Shown here: piece after piece, positions 3,000 through 58,752 of the stretch
Position numbering within the stretch: the first letter of the stretch is position 1
Layout of the letters: each line of letters opens with the position of its first letter
Assembly: GCA_030531505.1 (NCBI GenBank)
Contig: JAUNNH010000001.1
Span: forward strand, 248,001-312,000
DNA from: Eubacteriales bacterium
GTDB lineage: Bacteria > Bacillota > Clostridia > Oscillospirales > Oscillospiraceae
Reading direction: 5' to 3'
Length of the DNA: 64,000 nucleotides
Position numbers and translations under genes: made by a program
The notes under the pieces: model-generated
What the model was told of the DNA's origin: nothing
What the model saw: only the letters and a program-made list of their open reading frames with translations
Database searches by the model: none

Positions 3000-5519
<2,520 letters not shown>

Positions 5520-5532
5520 AACGGCCCCATAT

Positions 5533-5572
5533 AAAAGAGGAGAGAACGGGAGCTTTCGTTCTCTCCTCTTTT
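5533..5572 (+). terminator. Rho-independent terminator of csoR-copA
   Basis: A 16-bp stem (5533-5548 with 5557-5572) ends in a T-rich arm, 13 bases after the copA stop. Confidence 0.85.
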
Positions 5573-5614
5573 GTGTTACAATAAGGAGCATCAATGAATA
5601 AAGGATGACGGACC

Positions 5615-6844
5615 ATGAAAACACAACGGGACTATCCGCGCTTTACGGTGAGCGCCAAGGGTACGCGCTGGGTAGAGCAGGGGCACCCCTGGATCTACGC
5701 GGCGGAGGTGCTCGGCGAGGAGGGCGAGGCCGAAAACGGCGCGCTGGCCGACGCGGTCAGCGAAAAAGGGAAATATCTTGGGACCGGCTTTGTGAGCCGG
5801 GAGAGCAAGATCCGCCTGCGCCTCATCTCCCGCAACGCCAACGACCGCTTCGACGAGGCCTTTTGGCGCCGTCGCCTGCAGTATGCCTGGAACTACCGCA
5901 AGACTGTCATGGGCGCGGATACCGACTGCTGCCGCTTGATCTTCGGCGAAGCGGACGGCTTCCCGGGCCTCACGGTGGACCGCTTCCACGATCTGCTCGT
6001 GGCGCAGACGCTCTCGGTGGGCATCGAGCGCCTCAAGCCGCTGCTTTTCCCCCTGCTCGTCGAGCTCCTGCGGGAGGATGGGCAGGAGATCCGCGGCCTC
6101 TATGAGCGGAACGACGTCGCCATTCGCGCCCTCGAGGGGTTGGAGCAGGGCAAGGGCTGGTTCCCGCTGCCGGGCCTTCCGACACCGGAGAGCCCTGTTA
6201 CCGAAATCTGCGAGAACGGGATCTACTACGCGGTGGACGTGGAGAACGGGCAGAAGACCGGCTTCTTTCTCGACCAGAAGTATAACCGCCTCGCTGTTGC
6301 CCGCCTCGCGAAGGGGCGGCGCGTGCTTGACTGTTTCACGCACACCGGCTCCTTCGCCCTGAACGCCGCGAAGGGCGGCGCCGAGCACGTGACGGCGGTG
6401 GATATCTCCGCCTCCGCGATCGAGATGGCGAAGCGCAACGCCGTGCGCAACGGTCTGGACGGGAAGATGGACTTCATCGCGGCGGACGTGTTCGAGCTGC
6501 TGCCGAAACTGATCGAGCAGGGCGGTCATCCCTATGACTTCATCATCCTCGACCCGCCGGCCTTCACCAAGTCGCGCCGGACGGTGGACTCCGCAAGCCG
6601 CGGCTATAAGGAGATCAATCTCCGCGCGCTGCGCCTGCTGCCGCGCGGCGGCTATTTCGCCACGGCCTCCTGCAGCCATTTCATGGAGGACGCGCTCTTT
6701 GTGAAGATGCTGCGCGCCGCGGCGCTCGACGCGGGCGTGGAGCTGCGGCAGATCGAGGCGCGCCAGCAGGCCCCGGACCATCCGATCCTCTGGAACGTGC
6801 CCGAGACGGATTACCTGAAATTCTATCTCTTCCAGGTGGTGTGA
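5615..6844 (+). CDS. RlmI-like class I SAM-dependent rRNA cytosine methyltransferase
   Basis: A 409-residue protein of the RlmI/YccW family. It has an N-terminal PUA domain (KGTRWVEQGHPWIYAAEV), a central EEHEE-like domain, and a Rossmann methyltransferase domain from about residue 215. That domain starts with TGFFLDQKYNR, has CFTHTGSFALNAA as the SAM loop, and carries catalytic-type motifs DPPAFTKS near 312 and ATASCSHFM. Family members make 5-methylcytosine in 23S rRNA. Which base is methylated here is not known. The gene stands alone between two terminators or leaders; only a weak ribosome binding site is visible before ATG 5615. Confidence 0.9.
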   Translation: MKTQRDYPRFTVSAKGTRWVEQGHPWIYAAEVLGEEGEAENGALADAVSEKGKYLGTGFVSRESKIRLRLISRNANDRFDEAFWRRRLQYAWNYRKTVMGADTDCCRLIFGEADGFPGLTVDRFHDLLVAQTLSVGIERLKPLLFPLLVELLREDGQEIRGLYERNDVAIRALEGLEQGKGWFPLPGLPTPESPVTEICENGIYYAVDVENGQKTGFFLDQKYNRLAVARLAKGRRVLDCFTHTGSFALNAAKGGAEHVTAVDISASAIEMAKRNAVRNGLDGKMDFIAADVFELLPKLIEQGGHPYDFIILDPPAFTKSRRTVDSASRGYKEINLRALRLLPRGGYFATASCSHFMEDALFVKMLRAAALDAGVELRQIEARQQAPDHPILWNVPETDYLKFYLFQVV

Positions 6845-6865
6845 GGAGAGCGAGCGCCGCCGGGC

Positions 6866-6894
6866 TTGACAGAAGCGGCGGCGTCTGGTAGAGT
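6866..6894 (+). promoter_or_regulatory. Promoter of the ABC-F leader
   Basis: TTGACA (6866-6871), a 17-base spacer and TAGAGT (6889-6894). Transcription would begin near 6901, leaving a leader of about 235 bases before the ABC-F start. Confidence 0.65.
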
Positions 6895-6900
6895 TGATAC

Positions 6901-7136
6901 AACGTTAAACAGAAAGGTGCATCGGCGCGAACATGAAAAAGGCCTGATCGATTTGGTGAACACAGAGGAAGCTCTCCGTTCGGAGGGCTTGGGTCTGCGT
7001 GCGCCGGATCGGGTCGGGTCCCTTTCATCCGCCTGTTTTCCCCGGGAGGGGGAAGGCTCTGTGCGCCGCGGCATAGCCGGAGAGGATCTCGGTCCGTCTG
7101 CTCACGCAGGCGGACCGTTTTTCTATGGGAGGAACT
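6901..7136 (+). promoter_or_regulatory. Long 5' leader with conditional terminator upstream of the ABC-F gene
   Basis: This 235-base non-coding leader holds a 9-bp hairpin (6969-6990) and, just before the gene, a strong intrinsic terminator. A minimal open reading frame (ATG 6933, Met-Lys-Lys-Ala-stop) lies near the 5' end, 13 bases after AGAAAGGTG. GGTCC within 7016-7021 could pair with the 3' arm of the terminator and act as an antiterminator. Known antibiotic-resistance ABC-F genes are often controlled by ribosome-stalling attenuation in such leaders. I infer the same here, but the switch pairing is unproven. Confidence 0.5.
7090..7122 (+). terminator. Attenuator-type terminator directly before the ABC-F start
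   Basis: An 11-bp stem (7090-7100 with 7107-7117, one G-U pair) is followed by T5. It ends only 5 bases before the ABC-F ribosome binding site (7127-7132), so it lies in the transcript leader rather than behind a gene. Confidence 0.8.
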
Positions 7137-8672
7137 ATGCTGCAAATACGAAAGCTGACTTTGATACACAAGAAAGATCTGCATGTGCTGCTCCGGGATT
7201 TCGAACTGGTGCTCAACGCCGGCGACAAGGCGGTCGTCATCGGCGAGGAGGGAAACGGCAAGTCCACGCTGCTGCGCTGGATCTGTGACCCGGCCCTGGT
7301 CGAGCCCTATGTCGAGGCCGAGGGAGAGCGTGTCTGCCGCGGGAAGCTCGCCTACCTGCCGCAGGAACTCACGGAGGAGGAAAAGCAGGGGAGCGTCTAC
7401 GCCTATTTCAGCCGCTTCGACACCTTCTGGGATGCCGGGAGCGGCGAGCTGCGCCGCATCGCCCGGGAGCTGGGGCTGCCCGGCGATATCTTCTACAGCG
7501 AGCAGACGATGGCGAGCCTCTCCGGCGGCGAGCGCGTCAAGGTACAGATGGCGCGGCTCCGGCTGGAGCGGGCGGATCTGCTGCTGCTCGACGAGCCCTC
7601 GAACGACATCGACCTCGAGACCCTCGCCTGGCTCGAGCGGCTTATCCTCGATTGGGAGGGCGCGGTGCTCTTTATCTCGCACGATGAGACGCTGATCGAG
7701 CGCACGGCCAACCGCGTCGTCCTCCTCGAGCAGCTGCATCACAAGACGATCGCGCGCTGGAGCGTGGTGAACACGGACTACGCGGCCTTCGCCGCCGCGC
7801 GCCGCCGGAGCTTCGAGAAGCAGAAGCAGCTCGCCCTCTCCGAGCGGCGGGAGGAGCGTGAGGCCATGGAGCGCTTCCGCCGTATCCAGCAGCGTGTGGA
7901 GCACGAGCAGCGCACGATCTCGCGCGACGATCCGCACGGCGGGCGGCTGCTTAAAAAGAAGATGGCCTCCGTCAAGGCGCTTGAGCGCCGCTATGAGCGC
8001 GAGCATGCGGAGCGGACGGAGCGCCCCGAGACCGAGAGTGCGATCAGCGTGCGCCTGAACGAGCAGAAGCCGCTTCCGGCCGGGAGGACCGTGCTGGAGC
8101 TGGCGCTCCCGGAGCTCCGGACTGAGGACGGCAGGCGGCTGCTCGCCCGGGATCTGCACCTGAGCGTGCGCGGGGCGCAGAAGCTCTGCATCGTCGGGCG
8201 AAACGGCTGCGGCAAATCCACGCTCCTGCGCCGGATCGAGCGGGAGCTCCGGGAGCGGGAAAACCTGCGCGTCTTCTATATGCCGCAGAACTACGAGGAA
8301 CTGCTGGACGGGGAGCAAACGCCGGTGGACTTCCTTGCCCCCTCGGGGGAGAAGGAGGAGCGCACCCGCGTGCGGACCTTCCTCGGCTCGATGCGCTATA
8401 CCGTGCAGGAGACAGAGCGGCCGATCCGGGAGCTCTCGGGCGGGCAGAAGGCCAAGGTGCTGCTGCTGAAGATGGTGCTCACGGAGACGGATGTGCTGCT
8501 GCTCGACGAGCCGACCCGCAACTTCTCCCCGCTCTCGGGCCCGGAGATCCGCGCGATGCTGCGCGCCTTTCCCGGCGCGATTCTCAGCGTCTCCCACGAC
8601 CGGAAATTCATCGACGAGGTCTGCGGCGCCGTGTACCGCCTGAGCGAAGAGGGGCTTGAGCGCCTGCGCTGA
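7137..8672 (+). CDS. ABC-F family ATPase (ribosome-protection type)
   Basis: A 511-residue soluble protein with two ABC cassettes and no membrane segments. Cassette 1 has GEEGNGKST, LSGGERVK and LLLLDEPSNDID. A charged linker (around residues 220-310, rich in Arg/Glu) follows. Cassette 2 has GRNGCGKST, LSGGQKAK and the unusual Walker B region LLLLDEPTRNFSPLSG. ABC-F proteins bind the ribosomal E site; some confer resistance to PTC-targeting antibiotics. Length and linker fit a ribosome-acting member, but whether this one gives resistance cannot be told. The start at 7137 is chosen because GGGAGG (7127-7132) precedes it; an in-frame ATG at 7125 has no such site. Confidence 0.88.
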   Translation: MLQIRKLTLIHKKDLHVLLRDFELVLNAGDKAVVIGEEGNGKSTLLRWICDPALVEPYVEAEGERVCRGKLAYLPQELTEEEKQGSVYAYFSRFDTFWDAGSGELRRIARELGLPGDIFYSEQTMASLSGGERVKVQMARLRLERADLLLLDEPSNDIDLETLAWLERLILDWEGAVLFISHDETLIERTANRVVLLEQLHHKTIARWSVVNTDYAAFAAARRRSFEKQKQLALSERREEREAMERFRRIQQRVEHEQRTISRDDPHGGRLLKKKMASVKALERRYEREHAERTERPETESAISVRLNEQKPLPAGRTVLELALPELRTEDGRRLLARDLHLSVRGAQKLCIVGRNGCGKSTLLRRIERELRERENLRVFYMPQNYEELLDGEQTPVDFLAPSGEKEERTRVRTFLGSMRYTVQETERPIRELSGGQKAKVLLLKMVLTETDVLLLDEPTRNFSPLSGPEIRAMLRAFPGAILSVSHDRKFIDEVCGAVYRLSEEGLERLR

Positions 8673-8676
8673 GAGC

Positions 8677-8702
8677 GGGAACCTTTTTATCCCCACTGCG
8701 TC
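8677..8702 (+). promoter_or_regulatory. Candidate ECF-sigma promoter of the SPFH gene
   Basis: GGGAAC (8677-8682), a 16-base spacer and CGTC (8699-8702) match the GGAAC/CGTC architecture of sigma-W/RpoE-like promoters. It lies right after the ABC-F stop and 37 bases before the SPFH start. No good sigma-A promoter is visible in this gap. Confidence 0.5.
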
Positions 8703-8738
8703 CTAAAGACACAGACATAGAGAAAAGGAGGAAAAACG

Positions 8739-9737
8739 ATGTTTATTCTGGTAATTGGCCTGATCCTGTCCGCTGCGCTGTTTGTGTTCCTCGGCTTTGA
8801 AAACAAGACCGTTGCGGTGCCGGACGGCCGCGGCAATATGACGCAGATGCGCAGCAGCGAAAAGGAGTGGAAGACTCGCCCGGCCCAGCTTGCGGCCCTC
8901 GCCGTGCTGCTGGTGAGCTTGCTGCTCTCGAGCGTCACGGTGGTCCCGACCGGCTACACCGGGATCCTCACCACCTTCGGCCGCGTGGAGAACCGCACTA
9001 TCGGCGCCGGCGCCCACCTGATCCTGCCCTGGCAGAACGTCGTCAAGATGGATAACCGCACCCAGAAGGTGCAGATCACGACCGAGGCCTTCTCCAGCGA
9101 CATCCAGCAGGTGAACCTGGTGCTCTCGGTGAACTACTGCATCGATCAGAACACCGCGCAGGTGCTCTACCGCACCGTCGGCGCGAACTACTACGAGAAC
9201 GTGATGTATCCCCGTATCCTCGAGAACACCAAGGCAGTCTTTTCCCGCTACACGGCGGAGAATCTGATCGCCCGGCGCAACAGCCTCTCCGATTCGATCG
9301 CGGAGGACACGGCCTCGGATCTCCAGCGCTACGGCATCACGATCGTCTCCATCGCCATTGAGGATATCGACTTCACCGACGCCTTCACCACGGCCGTCGA
9401 GGCCAAGCAGGTCGCCGCGCAGAACAAGCTGACCGCCGAGACCGAGCAGGCCCAGAAGACCATGGAGGAAGAGGCCACCGCCAAGCGCGCCGTCATCGCG
9501 GCCAACGCCGAGGCGGAAAAGGCGGTCATCGCGGCCAACGCCGAGCTCGAGGTCGTGAAGGTCCAGGCCGAGGCGGCCCTCTATGCCGGCGAGAAAGAAG
9601 CCGAGATGAACAAACGTATCTCCGAGTCCCTGACCGATGGACTGATCGACTACTACTGGATCAAGCAGTGGGACGGGCAGCTCCCCAGCACCGTGCTTGG
9701 AGAGAGCGGCAGCTACATGATCGACCTGACGAAGTAA
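8739..9737 (+). CDS. SPFH/band 7 (prohibitin-like) membrane protein
   Basis: A 332-residue protein with a hydrophobic N-terminal hairpin (residues 1-18 and about 50-68), an SPFH domain (PTGYTGILTTFGRVENRT... through FTDAFTTAVEAKQ), then an Ala/Glu-rich coiled coil (AEKAVIAANAE repeated twice) and a short C-terminal region. SPFH proteins form oligomeric cages or scaffolds on membranes and often act with proteases or in envelope stress. The candidate ECF promoter upstream fits the stress-regulated expression known for some Firmicute flotillins. AAAGGAGG precedes the ATG. The exact partner is unknown. Confidence 0.85.
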   Translation: MFILVIGLILSAALFVFLGFENKTVAVPDGRGNMTQMRSSEKEWKTRPAQLAALAVLLVSLLLSSVTVVPTGYTGILTTFGRVENRTIGAGAHLILPWQNVVKMDNRTQKVQITTEAFSSDIQQVNLVLSVNYCIDQNTAQVLYRTVGANYYENVMYPRILENTKAVFSRYTAENLIARRNSLSDSIAEDTASDLQRYGITIVSIAIEDIDFTDAFTTAVEAKQVAAQNKLTAETEQAQKTMEEEATAKRAVIAANAEAEKAVIAANAELEVVKVQAEAALYAGEKEAEMNKRISESLTDGLIDYYWIKQWDGQLPSTVLGESGSYMIDLTK

Positions 9738-9756
9738 AGCCCGCAACCATACGCAA

Positions 9757-9791
9757 ACGGCCCCTGTGCACAAGGCACAGGGGCCGTGTTT
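9757..9791. terminator. Terminator between convergent SPFH and ABC genes
   Basis: A 13-bp perfect stem (9757-9769 with 9775-9787) is followed by GTTTT on the plus strand. On the minus strand the tail is weaker. Confidence 0.8.
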
Positions 9792-9805
9792 TGCTGTCGG
9801 GAGAC

Positions 9806-10603
9806 TTATTTGCTCAGCAGCACCTGATCGCTCTCGATCGGCGTGCCGGCCAGGGCGGCGAACTTGTCCACCAGCTCCTGACGGGTGAGGTGCTTTTTCT
9901 CCTCTCCGCTCACGTCGAGGATGATGTTGCCCTCGTTCATCATGATGAGGCGGTTGCCGTGCCGGATGGCGTCGGACATGTTGTGGGTGATCATGAGGGT
10001 GGTGAGCTTGTTCTCGGAGACGATCTGCTCGGAGAGCTCCAGCACCTTGGCGGCCGTAGCCGGGTCCAGGGCGGCGGTGTGCTCATCGAGCAGGAGGAGC
10101 TTCGGCTTGCGCAGCGAGGCCATCAGCAGTGTGACGGCCTGGCGCTGCCCGCCGGAGAGCAGCCCGACCTTCGCGGTCATGCGGTCCTCCAGGCCGAGGC
10201 CCAGGGTCTTGAGCACCTCGCGGTAGCGGATGCGCTCATCGCGCGTTACGCCCCAGCGCAGCCCGCGTTTCTGCCCGCGGCGCAGGGCCAGGGCCAGATT
10301 CTCTTCGAGCTGCATGTTCGGCGCGGTGCCCATCATGGGGTCCTGGAAGACGCGGCCGATGAGTGAGGCGCGCCGGTGCTCGGGCAGGGCGGTGATATCT
10401 GTCCCGTCGAGGAAGATACGCCCCTCGTCCACAGGCCAGACGCCCGCGATGGCGTTGAGCATCGTGGATTTGCCGGCGCCGTTGCCGCCGATGACCGTCA
10501 CGAAGTCGCCCGGCTTCAGGTGCAGGGAGAGGTCGACCAGCGCTTTTTTCTCGTTGATCGTGCCGGGGTTGAAGGTCTTGCTGATGTGCTCGAGCTTAAG
10601 CAT
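9806..10603 (-). CDS. ABC transporter ATP-binding protein, TrpZ-type aromatic amino acid system
   Basis: A 265-residue ABC ATPase with Walker A GGNGAGKST, signature LLSGGQRQ, Walker B LLLLDEHTAALDP and H-loop ITHNM. It is the third gene of a binding-protein/permease/ATPase set of the 'putative tryptophan/tyrosine transport' family. I take ATG 10603 as the start because GGAGG lies 8 bases before it. An upstream in-frame ATG at 10636 would add 11 residues without a good site. The start lies 8 bases inside the permease gene, so the two are translationally coupled. It energises uptake at the cytoplasmic side of the membrane. Confidence 0.9.
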   Translation of the reverse strand: MLKLEHISKTFNPGTINEKKALVDLSLHLKPGDFVTVIGGNGAGKSTMLNAIAGVWPVDEGRIFLDGTDITALPEHRRASLIGRVFQDPMMGTAPNMQLEENLALALRRGQKRGLRWGVTRDERIRYREVLKTLGLGLEDRMTAKVGLLSGGQRQAVTLLMASLRKPKLLLLDEHTAALDPATAAKVLELSEQIVSENKLTTLMITHNMSDAIRHGNRLIMMNEGNIILDVSGEEKKHLTRQELVDKFAALAGTPIESDQVLLSK

Positions 10604-11546
10604 GATCGGCGCCTCCTTTCCGTCTGAGTTTGGCAAAGGAGCTCCTGCGCTGCCCGCGCAGATAGGGAACGGCCAGGAACAGCGCCACGACCACGGCGGT
10701 GAAAAGCTTGAGGTCGTTGGAGTTGAGGCGCAGCCACAGCACCACGACGATGACCAGGTAGTAGATCACGCCGCCGACGACCGTAAAGCTCAGCGTGCCG
10801 TAGAAATTCAGATGCTTGCCGAGCAGCGCGCGGCTGATGACCTCGCCGATGATGACGGCGGCGAGCCCGATCACGATCGCACCGCGGCCCATATTGATGT
10901 CCGCGAAGCCCTGGTACTGGGCGAGCAGCCCGCCGGAGAGCGCCACGATGCCGTTGGAGATCGCAAGCCCCAGCACCTTCATCGAGTCGATGTTGATGCC
11001 GAGCGCGCGGCTCATGGCGGGATTGTTGCCGGTGGCGCGGATCGCCGAGCCCTGCTCGGTGCCGAAATACCAGTAGAAGACGCTGACAAGCGCCAGCGCG
11101 ACCAGCGCGCCGGTCAGGATCGCGGAGGGGATGTGCCGCGAGGAGAGCAGCAGGTGATACTTGTCCACACTTACGGCCTTGTTGGCCGCCATGCCCATGA
11201 TGCGCAGGTTGATCGAGTACAGGGAGAACTGCGTCAGGATGCCCGCGAGGATGGCGGGAATGCCGAGCTTGGTGTGCAGGAGGCCCGTCACGAGGCCCGC
11301 GAGCAGGCCTGCCAGCACGGCGACGAGCAGCGCGACCCAGGCGGGCTTGCCCGCCAGGATCAGCATGACCGTGACGGCACCGCCCGTGGTAAAGGACCCG
11401 TCGACGGTCAGATCGGCCACATCCAGCAGACGGAAAGTGATATAGATACCCAGGGCCATGATGCCCCAGATGATGCCCTGCGAGACGCCGCCGGGCAGGT
11501 TCCGGGCCAGCTTGAGCAGATTCAGGGAGGCGAAATAGGCTGCCAT
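10596..11546 (-). CDS. ABC transporter permease, TrpY-type aromatic amino acid system
   Basis: A 316-residue membrane protein with about eight to nine helices, similar to branched-chain amino acid-type permeases (WGIMALGIYITFRLLDVADLTVDGSF near the N-terminus, a glycine-rich GLLAQYQGFADINMGRGAIVIG helix, and a basic C-terminus). This permease family pairs with a binding protein of the TrpX type, encoded just upstream. The ribosome binding site GAAGGAG is about 13 bases from ATG 11546, longer than usual. No better start is visible. The basic tail (GQRRSSFAKLRRKGG) probably faces the cytoplasm. Confidence 0.88.
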   Translation of the reverse strand: MAAYFASLNLLKLARNLPGGVSQGIIWGIMALGIYITFRLLDVADLTVDGSFTTGGAVTVMLILAGKPAWVALLVAVLAGLLAGLVTGLLHTKLGIPAILAGILTQFSLYSINLRIMGMAANKAVSVDKYHLLLSSRHIPSAILTGALVALALVSVFYWYFGTEQGSAIRATGNNPAMSRALGINIDSMKVLGLAISNGIVALSGGLLAQYQGFADINMGRGAIVIGLAAVIIGEVISRALLGKHLNFYGTLSFTVVGGVIYYLVIVVVLWLRLNSNDLKLFTAVVVALFLAVPYLRGQRRSSFAKLRRKGGADHA

Positions 11547-50117: not shown

Positions 50118-51320
50118 TCAGACCTCGCCGTTGAGATAATCCACGCTGTAGCAGACGTAGAGAGCGGTCGCGACGGTAAGGGCGTCCTCGTCGATGTCGA
50201 AGTGGGAATTGTGCTGGGAGGCCATGGTGTCGGGCCGGGCCGGATTGCCCGAGCCGATATAGGCGTAAACGCCGGGGACACGCAGGATATACTCGGCAAA
50301 GTCGTCCCCGCCCAGGGAGGGCTGCCGCGAGCGGATGACCTTGTCCTCACCGAAGAGAGAGACGGCGGTCTTCTGAGCCTCCGCGGTGGCGGCGTCGTCG
50401 TTGATGAGGGGGGAGGTGTTGTCGTTCCACTCAAGCTCGGCGCTGCCGCCGAAGAGCGCGGCCGTCTGCCTGGCCAGCGCTTCGAGACGGGCCTTGGTGA
50501 GGCGGCGCAGCTCCGGCGTGAAGACGCGGATCGTACCCTCCAGCTCAGCCTCCTGGGCGATCACGTTGTAGGCGGTGCCGGCACTGAGCTTGCCGATACC
50601 AATGAGTACATTGTCCATCGGACTGGTGCGGCGGGTGACGAGCGCCTGCGCGGCCACGACGATCTGGCTCGCGATATAGACGGCGTCCGCGCCCTGCTCC
50701 GGTGTCGAGACGTGCGCGCTGAGGCCGTGGACCCGGATGCGGAACCAGTCGACGCTGGCATTGTTCGGACCGGGCATCAGCACGACCGAGCCGACCGGGA
50801 CGTTGGAAGCGACATGGACGCCGAAGCTGCGCCCGGCCTCGTCGATATCCCCCTCGTCCACGATGATGCGCGCGCCGTAGCCGATTTCCTCGCCCGGCTG
50901 CCAGGTGAGGATCACCTTGCCGGCGAAGCGGTCGCGGTTGGCGCTGAGGATGCGCGCGGCGCCGATCAGCGAGGCGTTGTGCCCGTCGTGCCCACAGGCG
51001 TGCATCTTCCCGGGGCAGAGACTCTTGTAGGGGGGATCGTTTTCCTGCTGAACCGGGAGCGCATCGATGTCGGCACGCAGGGCGATGCAGCGCGGCTCGC
51101 CCTGACAGGGGGCCGTTCCCTCAATCTCGGCGACAACCCCGGTGACCGCCGCGCGGCGGTGGGGGATCCCGAGAAGATCAAGCTCACGCTCTATGGCGGC
51201 GGCGGTCTCGAACTCCTCCTTCCCCAGCTCGGGGTGCCGGTGGAATTCGCGGCGCAGGTCCACAACATAGTCGTGATCGGCGAGCACCTGCTCGTACAAG
51301 TATTTCTGAAGATCGGTCAT
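50118..51320 (-). CDS. M20 family amidohydrolase/peptidase
   Basis: A 400-residue zinc-dependent hydrolase of the M20D type (N-acyl-amino-acid amidohydrolase/hippurate hydrolase). Metal motifs are MHACGHDGHNASLIGAA, GEEIGYGARIIVDEGD and LGGDDFAEYI; the lid domain (MPGPNNASVDWFRIRVHGLSAHVSTPEQG) is in between. It is the last gene of a T-box-controlled methionine-type ABC operon, after a 63-base gap holding a hairpin. That context suggests it releases methionine or a related amino acid from an N-acylated or peptide form. Substrate is not shown. AAAGGA precedes ATG 51320. Confidence 0.9.
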   Translation of the reverse strand: MTDLQKYLYEQVLADHDYVVDLRREFHRHPELGKEEFETAAAIERELDLLGIPHRRAAVTGVVAEIEGTAPCQGEPRCIALRADIDALPVQQENDPPYKSLCPGKMHACGHDGHNASLIGAARILSANRDRFAGKVILTWQPGEEIGYGARIIVDEGDIDEAGRSFGVHVASNVPVGSVVLMPGPNNASVDWFRIRVHGLSAHVSTPEQGADAVYIASQIVVAAQALVTRRTSPMDNVLIGIGKLSAGTAYNVIAQEAELEGTIRVFTPELRRLTKARLEALARQTAALFGGSAELEWNDNTSPLINDDAATAEAQKTAVSLFGEDKVIRSRQPSLGGDDFAEYILRVPGVYAYIGSGNPARPDTMASQHNSHFDIDEDALTVATALYVCYSVDYLNGEV

Positions 51321-51383: not shown

Positions 51384-52307
51384 TTACTTGGTGCCGGCCG
51401 CTTCCTTGAGCGCGTCGACGGAATCGAACTGCTTGGAATACAGGGTCAGGGGAGCCATCAGGGTATCGAAAATGGTCTCGATCTCATAGCCCTGGGAGTC
51501 GACCTCCTTGGCGAGATAGGCCTTGTGCTGGAAGGAGTTCAGGTCGATATCGCCGCTGTTGAGAGCCTCGTTGGGAAGATTGTAGGCGTCGAACTCGACG
51601 AGCTCGATGTAGATGTTGGCCTCATTCTGATCGAGGACATACTGCACGGCGTTCCAGTGGTCGTTGGACGCGCCGCAGACGCCGACCTTCACGACGGTCT
51701 TGCCGGCCTTGTCGGCCTTGTAGCCGTCGACCAGAGCGAGCAGCTCTTCGTCGCTGTACTCGGTGTTCTCATACTCGAAGGCGGGGATGAAGGCCTCACT
51801 GTACTTCGCAATCAGATACTGGCCGACCAGATCGCTCTGGAAGGCGTCCCGGATGGGCTGGTAGAGCTCGTTGTCCTTGTCGGCGCTGCGGGCGACGACC
51901 ACGTTCACGAAGGGGTTGCCGTCTTCACCCGTGGCATCCGCCTGGGACTCGATAGCCAGACCGTCCTTGGAGGGAACAAGGCCGGTGGGGATAGCGTAGG
52001 TGCCGTTGATGGTGGAAGCGCCGAAGTCGTCAAGCGTGGCGGGCAGGGTGTTGGCCTGCGTGGGAACGATCTCGATGTTGTACAGATAGTTGGTGATGTC
52101 CTTCAGCTCGGGGACCCAGCCGGCGGCGGGATCGACCTCGATCAGACCGACGGACTCGAGCAGCTTGATCGCGCGGCCGCCGTTGGTGGCGTCGTCGGGG
52201 ATGCCGATGAGGATGTCGCCTGCCGCGGAGGCGCTCGGGGTCAGGGGAGAGAGGGCCAGAAGGGCAACCAGAAGAAGGCTCAGGATGGTGATGATTTTCT
52301 TGGACAT
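51384..52307 (-). CDS. MetQ/NlpA-family binding protein, apparently circularly permuted
   Basis: A 307-residue exported binding protein of the MetQ/NlpA type. Signal peptide 1-28 (PLTPSASA-AGD); no lipobox cysteine. The order of the family segments is swapped. Residues 31-180 contain what is normally the second half: IGIPDDATNGGRAIKLL, STINGTYAIPTGL, NPFVNVVVAR, AFQSDLVGQY. A helical linker (181-204) follows. Residues 205-307 contain what is normally the first half: VKVGVCGASNDHWN, IELVEFDAYNLPNEAL, DIDLNSFQHKAYL, LTLYSKQFDSVDALKEAAGTK. Joining end to beginning restores the usual MetQ order at the point where IAIPNDATNGGR follows. It is encoded between metI and an M20 gene under a T-box. It probably binds methionine or a derivative. 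AGGAG precedes the ATG. Confidence 0.88.
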   Translation of the reverse strand: MSKKIITILSLLLVALLALSPLTPSASAAGDILIGIPDDATNGGRAIKLLESVGLIEVDPAAGWVPELKDITNYLYNIEIVPTQANTLPATLDDFGASTINGTYAIPTGLVPSKDGLAIESQADATGEDGNPFVNVVVARSADKDNELYQPIRDAFQSDLVGQYLIAKYSEAFIPAFEYENTEYSDEELLALVDGYKADKAGKTVVKVGVCGASNDHWNAVQYVLDQNEANIYIELVEFDAYNLPNEALNSGDIDLNSFQHKAYLAKEVDSQGYEIETIFDTLMAPLTLYSKQFDSVDALKEAAGTK

Positions 52308-52335
52308 GATGGATTCTCCTTTTTTAAATTTTTTT

Positions 52336-53046
52336 TCAAATGTCGATCGTGCGCCGGATGAGAGCGCGGTTGGTGGTCCGTCTCGCCAGCGCGTTCCCGA
52401 CGCCCTGGAGCAATGACACGAAGATCAGCAGGACGACCACACAGACATTCACGATGTCCTGGTGGTGCAGGTTCTGCCCGTAGTTGATGGCAAAGCTGCC
52501 GATGCCGCCGGCACCGACCGCGCCGGCCATGGTGGTCAGGCCGATCAGGCTGATGGCGGTGATGGTGACGGCCCGGATCAGATCGGGCACGGACTCGTGC
52601 AGGTAGACGCGGAAGATGATGCCGAGCTTTCCGCTGCCCATCGCGGCTGCGGCTTCGATCTTGCCGGGGCTGACGTTCGCGAGCGCCGCCTCCACCTGGC
52701 GGGTGAAGAAGGGCACCGCGCCGAAGACCAGCGGGACGATCGCGCCCTTGACGCCGATGGCCGTGCCGACGATCGTGCGCGTGAGCGGGATCAGAAAGAT
52801 GAGCAGGATCACAAAGGGGATGGAGCGGAACACGTTGGTCACGATGTTCACCAGATTGTAGACGAAAGCGTTTTCTGCGATGCCGCCCTTTTTCGTCACC
52901 GTCAGCAGGACGCCGAAAACGCTGCCGAGCACGAGCGTAAAGCCGCCCGCGATCAGGAACATCTGCCCCGTGGCCATACAGCTCGACCAGAATTTGCCGC
53001 TGTAGTCTACCACGTTCGGCATGATACTCGCCAGCCATTCAGCCAT
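52336..53046 (-). CDS. metI: MetI-like ABC transporter permease
   Basis: A 236-residue MetI-type permease with about five helices. Motifs are FLIAGGFTLVLGSVFGVLLTV, NIVTNVFRSIPFVILLIFLIPLTR and the EAA loop EAAAAMGSGKLGIIFRVYLHESVPDLIRAV. It forms the channel of a MetNIQ uptake system. It overlaps metN by 8 bases (translationally coupled). AAGGTGATC-like GGAGGTGATC lies before its ATG. The system likely imports methionine or a related compound, supported by the MetN C-terminal domain and the T-box upstream. Confidence 0.92.
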   Translation of the reverse strand: MAEWLASIMPNVVDYSGKFWSSCMATGQMFLIAGGFTLVLGSVFGVLLTVTKKGGIAENAFVYNLVNIVTNVFRSIPFVILLIFLIPLTRTIVGTAIGVKGAIVPLVFGAVPFFTRQVEAALANVSPGKIEAAAAMGSGKLGIIFRVYLHESVPDLIRAVTITAISLIGLTTMAGAVGAGGIGSFAINYGQNLHHQDIVNVCVVVLLIFVSLLQGVGNALARRTTNRALIRRTIDI

Positions 53047-54118
53047 GCTCGATCACCTCCACAATGACATTGCTCTCGCAAAGATGTTGTATGGCGGCGC
53101 GGCGCTTTTCCATGTCGCCGTCGACGAGGACGACCAGACCGCCAAGTGGACTGCCCTGCAGCAGCTCCAGGCTGCCCAGGAGGATATTCATGTTCACGCC
53201 GTAGAGGCGGGACACTTCGGAAATAAGCGCTTCGCCGACGCAGTCCTCGTTATAGGTGCAGCGGATCAGTGTGCCGCCGCCGCTGAGAACGTCGGACTGT
53301 TCCTCGATCAGCTTGTTGATGCGGCCAAGGCCGGAGGAGCTGTCGACGAACTTGCGGGTGATGGGCGCCTGGGGAGCCGAGAAGACCTTGTACACATTGC
53401 CCTGCTCGACCACGCGGCCGTTCTCCATCACCGCGACCTTGTTGCAGATCGCTTTGACCACCGCCATCTCATGGGTGATGAGCACGATGGTGAGGTTCAG
53501 CTTGCGGTTGAGCTCCTTGAGCAGACGGAGGATCGACTCGGTGGCGTCGGGATCGAGGGCCGAGGTGGCCTCGTCGGAGAGGAGGACGCGGGGATTGTTG
53601 GCCAGGGCGCGGGCGATGGCGACGCGCTGCTTCTGACCGCCGGAGAGTTCGGAGGGGTAGGCATTGATCTTCTCCCGCAGATCCACGAGATCGAGCAGCT
53701 CTACCACGCGGTCCCGGATCGCGGCTTTGCCGAGCCCGGTATGCCGGAGCGGGTAGGCGATGTTTTCAAACACGGTGCTGCGGTCAAGCAGATTGAAGTG
53801 CTGGAAAATCATGCCCATATCCCGGCGCAGCGCTTTGAGATGCTTTTCACTCAGCGCGACCTCCGTCCCGCCCTCACTCTGATAGAAGGCGCGGCCGTTC
53901 TCGGCGCGGATGCTGCCGAAACCCTGGACGCGGATCAGCCCGCTGTCGGGCCGCTCGAGATAGTTGATGCAGCGCACCAGCGTGCTCTTGCCGGCGCCGG
54001 AATAGCCGACGATGCCGAAAACGTCGCCCTCCTGAATGTCGAGCGTCACATCCTGCACGGCGTGGACAGCCGCGCCGGCGGCGGAAAAGGTCTTGTTTAA
54101 AGCCTGTAATTCGATCAT
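53039..54118 (-). CDS. metN: MetN-like ABC transporter ATPase with NIL domain
   Basis: A 359-residue ATPase: Walker A GYSGAGKSTLVRCINYLE, ELSGGQKQRVAIARALANNP, DEATSALDPDATESILRLL and H-loop ITHEMAVVK. The about 90-residue C-terminal extension (VDSSSGLGRINKLIEEQ...VEVIEHG) is the ACT-like NIL domain that binds methionine and inhibits transport in MetN proteins. It is the first gene of the operon and lies just after a T-box terminator. The position of an in-frame ATG with GGAG upstream gives the start at 54118. Confidence 0.93.
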   Translation of the reverse strand: MIELQALNKTFSAAGAAVHAVQDVTLDIQEGDVFGIVGYSGAGKSTLVRCINYLERPDSGLIRVQGFGSIRAENGRAFYQSEGGTEVALSEKHLKALRRDMGMIFQHFNLLDRSTVFENIAYPLRHTGLGKAAIRDRVVELLDLVDLREKINAYPSELSGGQKQRVAIARALANNPRVLLSDEATSALDPDATESILRLLKELNRKLNLTIVLITHEMAVVKAICNKVAVMENGRVVEQGNVYKVFSAPQAPITRKFVDSSSGLGRINKLIEEQSDVLSGGGTLIRCTYNEDCVGEALISEVSRLYGVNMNILLGSLELLQGSPLGGLVVLVDGDMEKRRAAIQHLCESNVIVEVIEHG

Positions 54119-54133
54119 GCCTCTTACTCCAAC

Positions 54134-54409
54134 AAAAAACCGCCCTTACACATGTAAGGACGGATAATAACCCGTGGTACCACCTTGCTTTACAGCGGAA
54201 CGGACCGCTGCCTCCTACAGCGCGCCAACACGCGCCTCCTCTGTAACGGGAGTACCCGTCGAACGCTAAGTTTCCATCGCGCCCGCGACTCCGAGACCAT
54301 GTTCGCCCGCCTTCTTCCTATCCCTTTTCAGCTGCCGGGATTCTCTGCAGAGGCCTCCACCGGGTTACTCTTCTCTTCTTCGCCATTTTGTGGGTGATAT
54401 GAAGTTGAT
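54134..54409 (-). ncRNA. T-box leader riboswitch, likely tRNA-Met specific
   Basis: A 275-base minus-strand leader with the T-box consensus GGTGGTACCACGGG (54171-54184). It is followed by a terminator CCGTCCTTACATGTGTAAGG...GGTTTTTT (54134-54163) that the T-box pairs against. Stem I shows AGTA and GAAC internal-loop elements and an apical GCAGCTGAAAAGG-like segment. Stem III is ACGGGTACTCCCGT (near 54245-54260). The triplet after GAAC (54298-54300) reads AUG, predicting a methionine specifier, which fits metN downstream. The specifier call is the less certain part; the T-box itself is firm. Confidence 0.88.
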
Positions 54410-58601: not shown

Positions 58602-58635
58602 AAAAACCGCAGGCTCGAAAAAACGAACCTGCGGT
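58602..58635 (-). terminator. TPP-riboswitch-controlled terminator
   Basis: A 12-bp stem (58606-58617 with 58624-58635, one G-U pair) followed by T5 on the minus strand, between the TPP aptamer and thiT. Confidence 0.85.
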
Positions 58636-58644
58636 AAAGCGCCT

Positions 58645-58734
58645 TCACGGTTTCCTACGCCGGCATTATCCGGATCAGGTTCCAGGGTTTCAAGGCTCTC
58701 TTGCCTTGTCTCAGCCGGGAGTACCCAGCGCCCC
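58645..58734 (-). ncRNA. TPP riboswitch (THI element)
   Basis: On the minus strand the leader carries the THI-box pieces GGGGCGCT, CTGAGA, ACCCTGGAACCTGATCCGG and ATAATGCCGGCGTAGGAA, in the conserved order. Binding of thiamine pyrophosphate should favour the downstream terminator and shut off thiT. Confidence 0.95.
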
Positions 58735-58752
58735 TTTTCAGTTGACGGGGAC

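Follow-up and report, generated by a model that had tools for sequence, protein, structure and literature searches.

A naturally circularly permuted MetQ in Oscillospiraceae, with the same exchange of parts arisen at least twice

We examined a 64,000-nucleotide stretch of DNA (hereafter the window) from a Eubacteriales bacterium of the Oscillospiraceae, positions 248,001 to 312,000 of the forward strand of contig JAUNNH010000001.1 (assembly GCA_030531505.1), and in particular its metQ gene. Judged from its sequence, the chain of the encoded MetQ is confirmed as circularly permuted, and the permutation is real. The product is very probably a working methionine-binding protein of the MetNI ATP-binding cassette (ABC) importer, in which the chain is permuted and the former ends are joined by a short linker. 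The evidence consists of the order of parts, the gene neighbours, the ligand residues, the selection acting on the gene and its distribution among genomes. The exchange arose at least twice, in the same loop. Canonical MetQ is divided here into a first part (N), a second part (C1) and a C-terminal helical segment (C2), and in the window the gene is laid out as follows.

52316..52321, minus strand: Shine-Dalgarno sequence aaggag, separated by eight bases from the metQ ATG
51384..52307, minus strand: permuted metQ gene, 307 amino acids, from ATG to stop without an internal stop
52221..52307, minus strand: signal peptide, about residues 1-29, with an AxA-type end and no lipobox cysteine (from the sequence and relatives; cleavage site placed by eye)
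51885..52217, minus strand: C1, residues 31-141, the second part of canonical MetQ (profile match)
51768..51872, minus strand: C2, residues 146-180, the C-terminal helical segment of canonical MetQ (profile match)
51702..51767, minus strand: linker, residues 181-202, from the old C-terminus to the old N-terminus
51393..51701, minus strand: N, residues 203-305, the first part of canonical MetQ (profile match)

The first-pass annotation had proposed a full circular permutation in a single intact reading frame with its own ribosome binding site, the second half of MetQ standing ahead of the first, and the profile order bore this out. PF03180 (NlpA lipoprotein) matched the window protein in two stretches (175.1 bits against a cut-off of 27, E 1.8e-51), the best of which aligned residues 34-177 with positions 100-236 of the 236 in the profile; a Pfam-A scan at E up to 0.001 gave no other family. 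With our own MetQ profile (246 positions, made from 89 canonical relatives), residues 33-177 corresponded to positions 105-246 (139.2 bits) and residues 202-304 to positions 3-104 (92.3 bits). Rotation of the protein repaired the exchange, giving one stretch over positions 5-246 with 240.5 bits, compared with a top score of 2.3 bits among 200 residue shuffles. The chain does not follow the canonical linear order of N then C; since positions 105-246 come before 3-104, we file it as a permuted MetQ variant rather than as an ordinary member of the family. In a PDB search, the best stretch fitted the exchanged order for 22 of 22 sequences, and two stretches were found for 19 of them (residue alignments were inspected for the best five of the 22). 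A distant permuted relative, L182, likewise matched 22 sequences in two stretches each, and the searches with these two proteins found no permuted MetQ among solved structures. All three NCBIfam MetQ/NlpA models scored under their cut-offs on both proteins. The same order of parts recurs in many genomes, where the permuted proteins form two clades: W, which contains the window protein, and X, which contains L182. The order C1-C2-N is called type I here, and a second order, C2-N-C1, found within W, is called type II.

The residues that hold the ligand are retained. In MetQ from Neisseria meningitidis (NmMetQ), methionine is contacted by R156, N213 and N238 from one lobe and by Y81, F98, H100 and Y103 from the other (PMC6739813). 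By alignment and motif, these correspond to R45, N101 and N135 in C1 and to Y242, F259, H261 and Y264 in N of the window protein. Except for one Y264F, all 82 distinct permuted rows (63 from X, 17 from W type I and 2 from W type II) conserve the seven residues, and somewhat more variation was seen at these sites in canonical rows than in permuted ones. The ratio of nonsynonymous to synonymous substitution rates (dN/dS) past the signal peptide was 0.129-0.163 between the window gene and four relatives, dS being saturated in a fifth pair, and the window gene evolves under purifying selection. Because the contact residues are conserved and dN/dS is low, we conclude that the permuted frame is maintained as MetQ. 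The protein would fold as the usual two-lobed trap, bind methionine and pass it to MetNI. The new termini, placed by sequence in the loop between N and C1, would lie at the hinge of the lobes, which fits the lobe assignment in print (PMC6739813).

The distribution was determined at several levels. A search with the window protein through 61 genomes of the genus gave a MetQ match of some kind in 54 and a full-length W-type match in 11; six of these 11 also had a canonical metQ match. In a survey of 102 genomes of the genus, in which open reading frames (ORFs) were typed with hidden Markov models (HMMs) and all counts are lower bounds, a permuted metQ of any kind was present in at least 23 genomes: W type I in at least 17, type II in at least one (G1489, locus L041) and clade X in at least five (G009, G051, G322, G169 and G1495). 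Wider searches used an alignment of 14 permuted proteins and scored matches that covered both parts in C-N order, the samples overlapping. At the family level, 33 of 400 genomes had such a match (30 of the 33 were fetched, all typed C1-C2-N). The figures were 19 of 295 for the order, 19 of 391 for the class and 4 of 398 for the phylum. Among the four phylum-level hits, one was false: G1307 (L133), taken at first as permuted, has two adjacent canonical genes. Two others had already been counted. The typed permuted carriers span 17 family groups, 16 of which have clade X. Among 195 ORFs typed in loci L001-L188, 181 were distinct, with the architectures N-C1-C2 (89), C1-C2-N (80), N-C1 (6), tandem (3), C2-N-C1 (2) and C1-C2 (1); these loci were fetched for matching, so the numbers are not frequencies. 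We also searched seven clade X genomes that are 97-100% complete and consist of one to about 50 contigs (G185, G425, G075, G140, G1097, G948 and G725), scoring all first-look candidates with PF03180. Each gave two matches, both to the permuted gene and corresponding to its exchanged parts, and the permuted gene is the only MetQ in these seven near-complete genomes. The same search of the window's genome (74% complete) found only the window gene.

For phylogenetic analysis, the proteins were split into N, C1 and C2 and reset to canonical order. From 183 extracted sequences, 125 were used in a quick tree and 77, hand-picked to cover all groups, in a careful tree (its bootstrap was not fully settled). 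Both trees contained two separate permuted clades. Clade W (11 rows, support 100/100) lay among canonical proteins, nearest to Anaerotignum L043 at a branch of 81/85 that was not starred, and clade X (22 rows, 100/98) lay inside another canonical group (100/100). The starred branches require two changes. A single permuted clade occurred in 0 of 200 bootstrap trees, and forcing all permuted rows together was 81.6 log-likelihood units worse (approximately unbiased (AU) test, p 0.0065). When trees were built from N alone or from C1 and C2 alone, W and X each formed one group, and two changes were needed overall in both trees. The cut loop is identical in W and X; the linker between the old ends, measured as the HMM gap, is 36-37 residues in W and 27-32 in X. 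As the separation of W and X is strongly supported, the swap arose at least twice. Thus, the permutation suggested by the first-pass annotation stood, but its description as one case did not: it is recurrent, in two clades and with a second cut site.

The second site was found in L041 (332 amino acids) and L042 (310 amino acids), in which the parts run C2, linker, N, C1 and the chain ends one or two residues past VARTSDL. Over 222 compared columns, L041 shares 91% identity with the window protein; along its chain, the match to profile positions 214-246 precedes that to 3-212. Its first piece alone was weak on our own profile (8.2 bits), but it was 80.6% identical to the segment of the window protein and scored 70.4 bits with a C2 model, and the rotated L041 gave one match over positions 4-246. 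Loci L189 and L222 are the same contig as L041, and type II therefore rests on two metagenome-assembled genomes (MAGs). In the careful tree L041 was nested among type I sequences and L042 was basal in W with weak support. A single origin of type II is at odds with this splitting, which requires two changes, but was not rejected by the AU test (p 0.106). Both proteins stop just past TSDL, and type II may have had one origin or two. In sequence, the type I cut falls between ligand residues of opposite lobes and the type II cut just past the final ligand contact in the second lobe, where the chain would be cut at the other predicted lobe crossing. In the usual binding proteins of fold type II, C2 is in the same lobe as N. 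If this holds here, each permuted form retains one of the two lobe crossings.

Relatives also offer a candidate for the step that leads to permutation. The first-pass annotation had suggested that tandem-duplicated MetQ genes be sought, and such genes are present: INTERMEDIATES, a single in-frame N-C-N-C ORF of 528-565 codons, occurs in at least 5 of the 102 genomes of the genus.

Genomes with a tandem gene: G007, G034, G039, G1486 and G1491
Loci of the tandem genes: L023, L160, L161, L219 and L220

The two units within a tandem gene were 96.1, 92.6 and 91.1% identical in DNA in the three cases measured. G1491 has both a tandem gene and a permuted W gene (L200/L223), and a PF03180 search found nothing else there. 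The most likely origin of the permuted gene would be an in-frame tandem N-C-N-C gene that lost the first N and the last C. We lean towards the view that MetQ has been caught in the middle of permuting, with at least two lineages having used the same crossing, a second form within one of them the other crossing, and the lobes always joined by one strand. Long ORFs in L163-L166 (570-595 amino acids) were considered as tandem MetQ and rejected, as each has one MetQ unit. The one in L163 (733-2517, plus strand), the only one of the four that was scanned for other domains, encodes a fusion of 595 residues in which a canonical MetQ unit (PF03180) lies C-terminal to a family-3 binding protein (PF00497); those in L164-L166 (572-581 amino acids) likewise contain a single MetQ unit. 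Another arrangement was seen in Brachyspira alvinipulli, where four canonical metQ genes stand in a row (L045, 3858-7271), and one of the four has a very long branch.

It is also possible, if rather unlikely, that the permutation came from joining separately encoded halves, by fission and fusion or by exchange between neighbouring metQ genes, and not from tandem in-frame duplication. Adjacent separate metQ genes do exist (the four in L045 and the two in L133), as do tandem met gene sets in G058 (L186). Against this, at least five genomes of the genus contain the in-frame tandem genes, and the only half-gene among the 195 typed ORFs was a C1-C2 ORF of 156 amino acids at the end of locus L127 (no systematic search for split halves was made); short matches to the N part in G035 and G059 were cut by contig ends. 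A history with one origin, followed by gene conversion between distant MetQ lineages or by local reversion, would account for the cut loop common to W and X and for the metQ-metN-metI order shared by G058 (W) and L182 (X). We regard it as improbable, since W and X are split by starred branches, the bootstrap trees and the AU test speak against one clade, and the trees of N alone and of the C parts alone agree with the split.

Other explanations question the gene itself. All named W sequences (L031-L042) are from MAGs, and the window's genome is in 42 contigs, so a canonical metQ scrambled during assembly was considered. This has almost no probability: the same order is found in at least 17 of the 102 genomes of the genus and across 17 family groups, including near-complete genomes of one or two contigs, the window gene sits about 27 kb within a contig of 327 kb, and the permuted frame is under purifying selection. 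A non-functional relic, tolerated next to a canonical copy, could be imagined in view of the six W genomes out of 11 in the first genus sample that also had a canonical match, but it is highly unlikely given the dN/dS of 0.13-0.16, the intact ligand sites and the role of the permuted gene as sole MetQ in the seven clade X genomes. Equally little probability attaches to another binding-protein family with this natural order, for example one similar to the glycine-betaine protein OpuAC. The first-pass annotation had named a different known fold as what would overturn its view; instead, Pfam-A gave PF03180 only, the MetQ profile was fully covered after rotation, both permuted sets were nested among canonical MetQ proteins, and the ligand residues and neighbouring genes are those of MetQ.

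Several observations weigh against a working, permuted MetQ that arose by tandem duplication. The AlphaFold models, with a mean predicted local distance difference test score (pLDDT) of 56 for the window protein and 46 for a second model, were too poor to bear out the predicted fold, and Foldseek with the low-confidence window model gave no match below 0.001. The tandem genes included in the trees (L023 and L160) fell among canonical sequences, away from both permuted clades; therefore, they show that the step occurs in the genus but are not the parents of W. In addition, the signal of the window protein (...SPLTPSASAAGD) has no lipobox cysteine, and a lipobox pattern was absent from 12 of the 17 distinct W type I proteins (besides the window protein, L002-L005, L008-L011, L033, L034 and L036). 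E. coli MetQ requires its lipid for association with MetNI (PMC8416018). Forms without a lipobox must therefore either be retained in another way, as an uncleaved signal peptide might do, or work without an anchor. The other 5 W type I proteins did show the pattern, as did the two of type II and, in clade X, 61 of 63; in the two X proteins that it missed, a cysteine was correctly placed by eye. It also missed 22 of 89 full canonical rows (judged by the pattern alone), and for this reason a lipobox was not treated as strictly defining MetQ/NlpA. Of 11 W genomes, all have the lipoprotein enzyme Lgt and 9 have signal peptidase II. By eye, the tandem proteins L023, L160, L161 and L220 and a canonical protein in L033 also seem to have no lipobox.

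The neighbours of the window gene are consistent with methionine import. The first-pass annotation had placed metQ under a T-box and between metI and an M20 gene, and both placements agree with the Rfam, NCBIfam and Pfam matches:

54153..54389, minus strand: T-box leader upstream of metN (Rfam RF00230, 96.5 bits against a gathering score of 93)
53039..54118, minus strand: metN, ATPase with NIL domain (TIGR02314, 1.7e-106, under the curated cut-off; PF09383)
52336..53046, minus strand: metI, permease (NCBIfam PRK10782.1, 3.8e-55, under the curated cut-off)
50118..51320, minus strand: M20 amidohydrolase, downstream of metQ (TIGR01891, 7.4e-96; PF01546)

The run on the minus strand is thus T-box, metN, metI, permuted metQ and M20. 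MetN and MetI remain the best names for the two partners encoded with the permuted metQ, although both scored below the NCBIfam cut-offs. The T-box has an AUG at 54298-54300 (context GAA-C-AUG), which is the specifier by the usual rule for its position. Transcription of the operon would be permitted by the T-box when it senses uncharged tRNA-Met. In eleven further sources, Rfam found a T-box over the gathering score in L040 and L187 (both clade W) and none over that score in the other nine. L040 is a W-type permuted metQ with the T-box upstream in a MAG titled Solobacterium sp., which may reflect transfer or a binning error. In G058 (L186, clade W, 4673-11226), the order is permuted metQ, metN, metI, an ORF in the M20 position, metN, metI and canonical metQ, where M20 was labelled from position alone and metQ from ORF typing and the tree. 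In clade X, L182 has metQ beside metN and metI in the order metQ-metN-metI, and ORFs of corresponding size follow that order in L180. Gene order had been considered as an argument for separate origins; as G058 (W) and L182 (X) both have metQ first, it does not separate W from X. Elsewhere in the window, a thiamine pyrophosphate (TPP) riboswitch was detected at 58633-58745 on the minus strand (57 bits against a Rfam gathering score of 54.3).

The closest known system is the MetQ/NlpA family itself (PF03180; E. coli MetQ, 4yah; N. meningitidis MetQ, 3ir1/6oja), to which the window protein is similar over its full length after rotation, with the same ligand residues and the same metN-metI partners; it differs in its exchanged parts, the new ends in the N-C1 loop, the linker of about 22 residues and the lack of a lipobox. 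The tandem N-C-N-C proteins of the same genus belong to the same family and contain the C-N order in frame, but consist of two whole canonical units. The glycine-betaine binding proteins OpuAC (2b4l) and ProX offer a comparison from another family. They are related by circular permutation and have a conserved pocket, but such pairs are less than 24% identical (PMC2395249), whereas permuted and unpermuted MetQ are close enough for trees and for comparison residue by residue. A natural permutation in a binding protein of an ABC importer is also described for the glucose-binding TpMglB-2 (Tp0684, 'Type Ic'), which retains ligand binding and has homologs in Gram-positive gut bacteria. It belongs to a sugar family (cluster B), its first three strands were moved and a fourth hinge crossing was gained (PMC4990184); in permuted MetQ, by contrast, the halves exchange and one crossing is predicted to be lost. 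Engineered permuted lobes also exist (PMC9815098). In agreement with the first-pass annotation, which was aware of no described permuted member, we found no permuted MetQ or NlpA in the open-licence papers searched. Permutation of binding proteins is known in other families, and the MetQ case would be new, with an unusually complete set of forms.

Such completeness gives this gene its value as a natural test case for protein rearrangement. Most known cases of natural circular permutation are isolated, old pairs without a surviving intermediate. With this gene, residue-level comparison extends to canonical, doubled, permuted and differently permuted forms, with the outcome repeated at one loop, and the duplication-deletion model of permutation is therefore directly testable. 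A practical consequence is that tools that assume one linear order split the permuted proteins into two pieces. If the lobe assignment is true, one could also test whether the opening and closing of a binding protein depend on its having two hinge strands.
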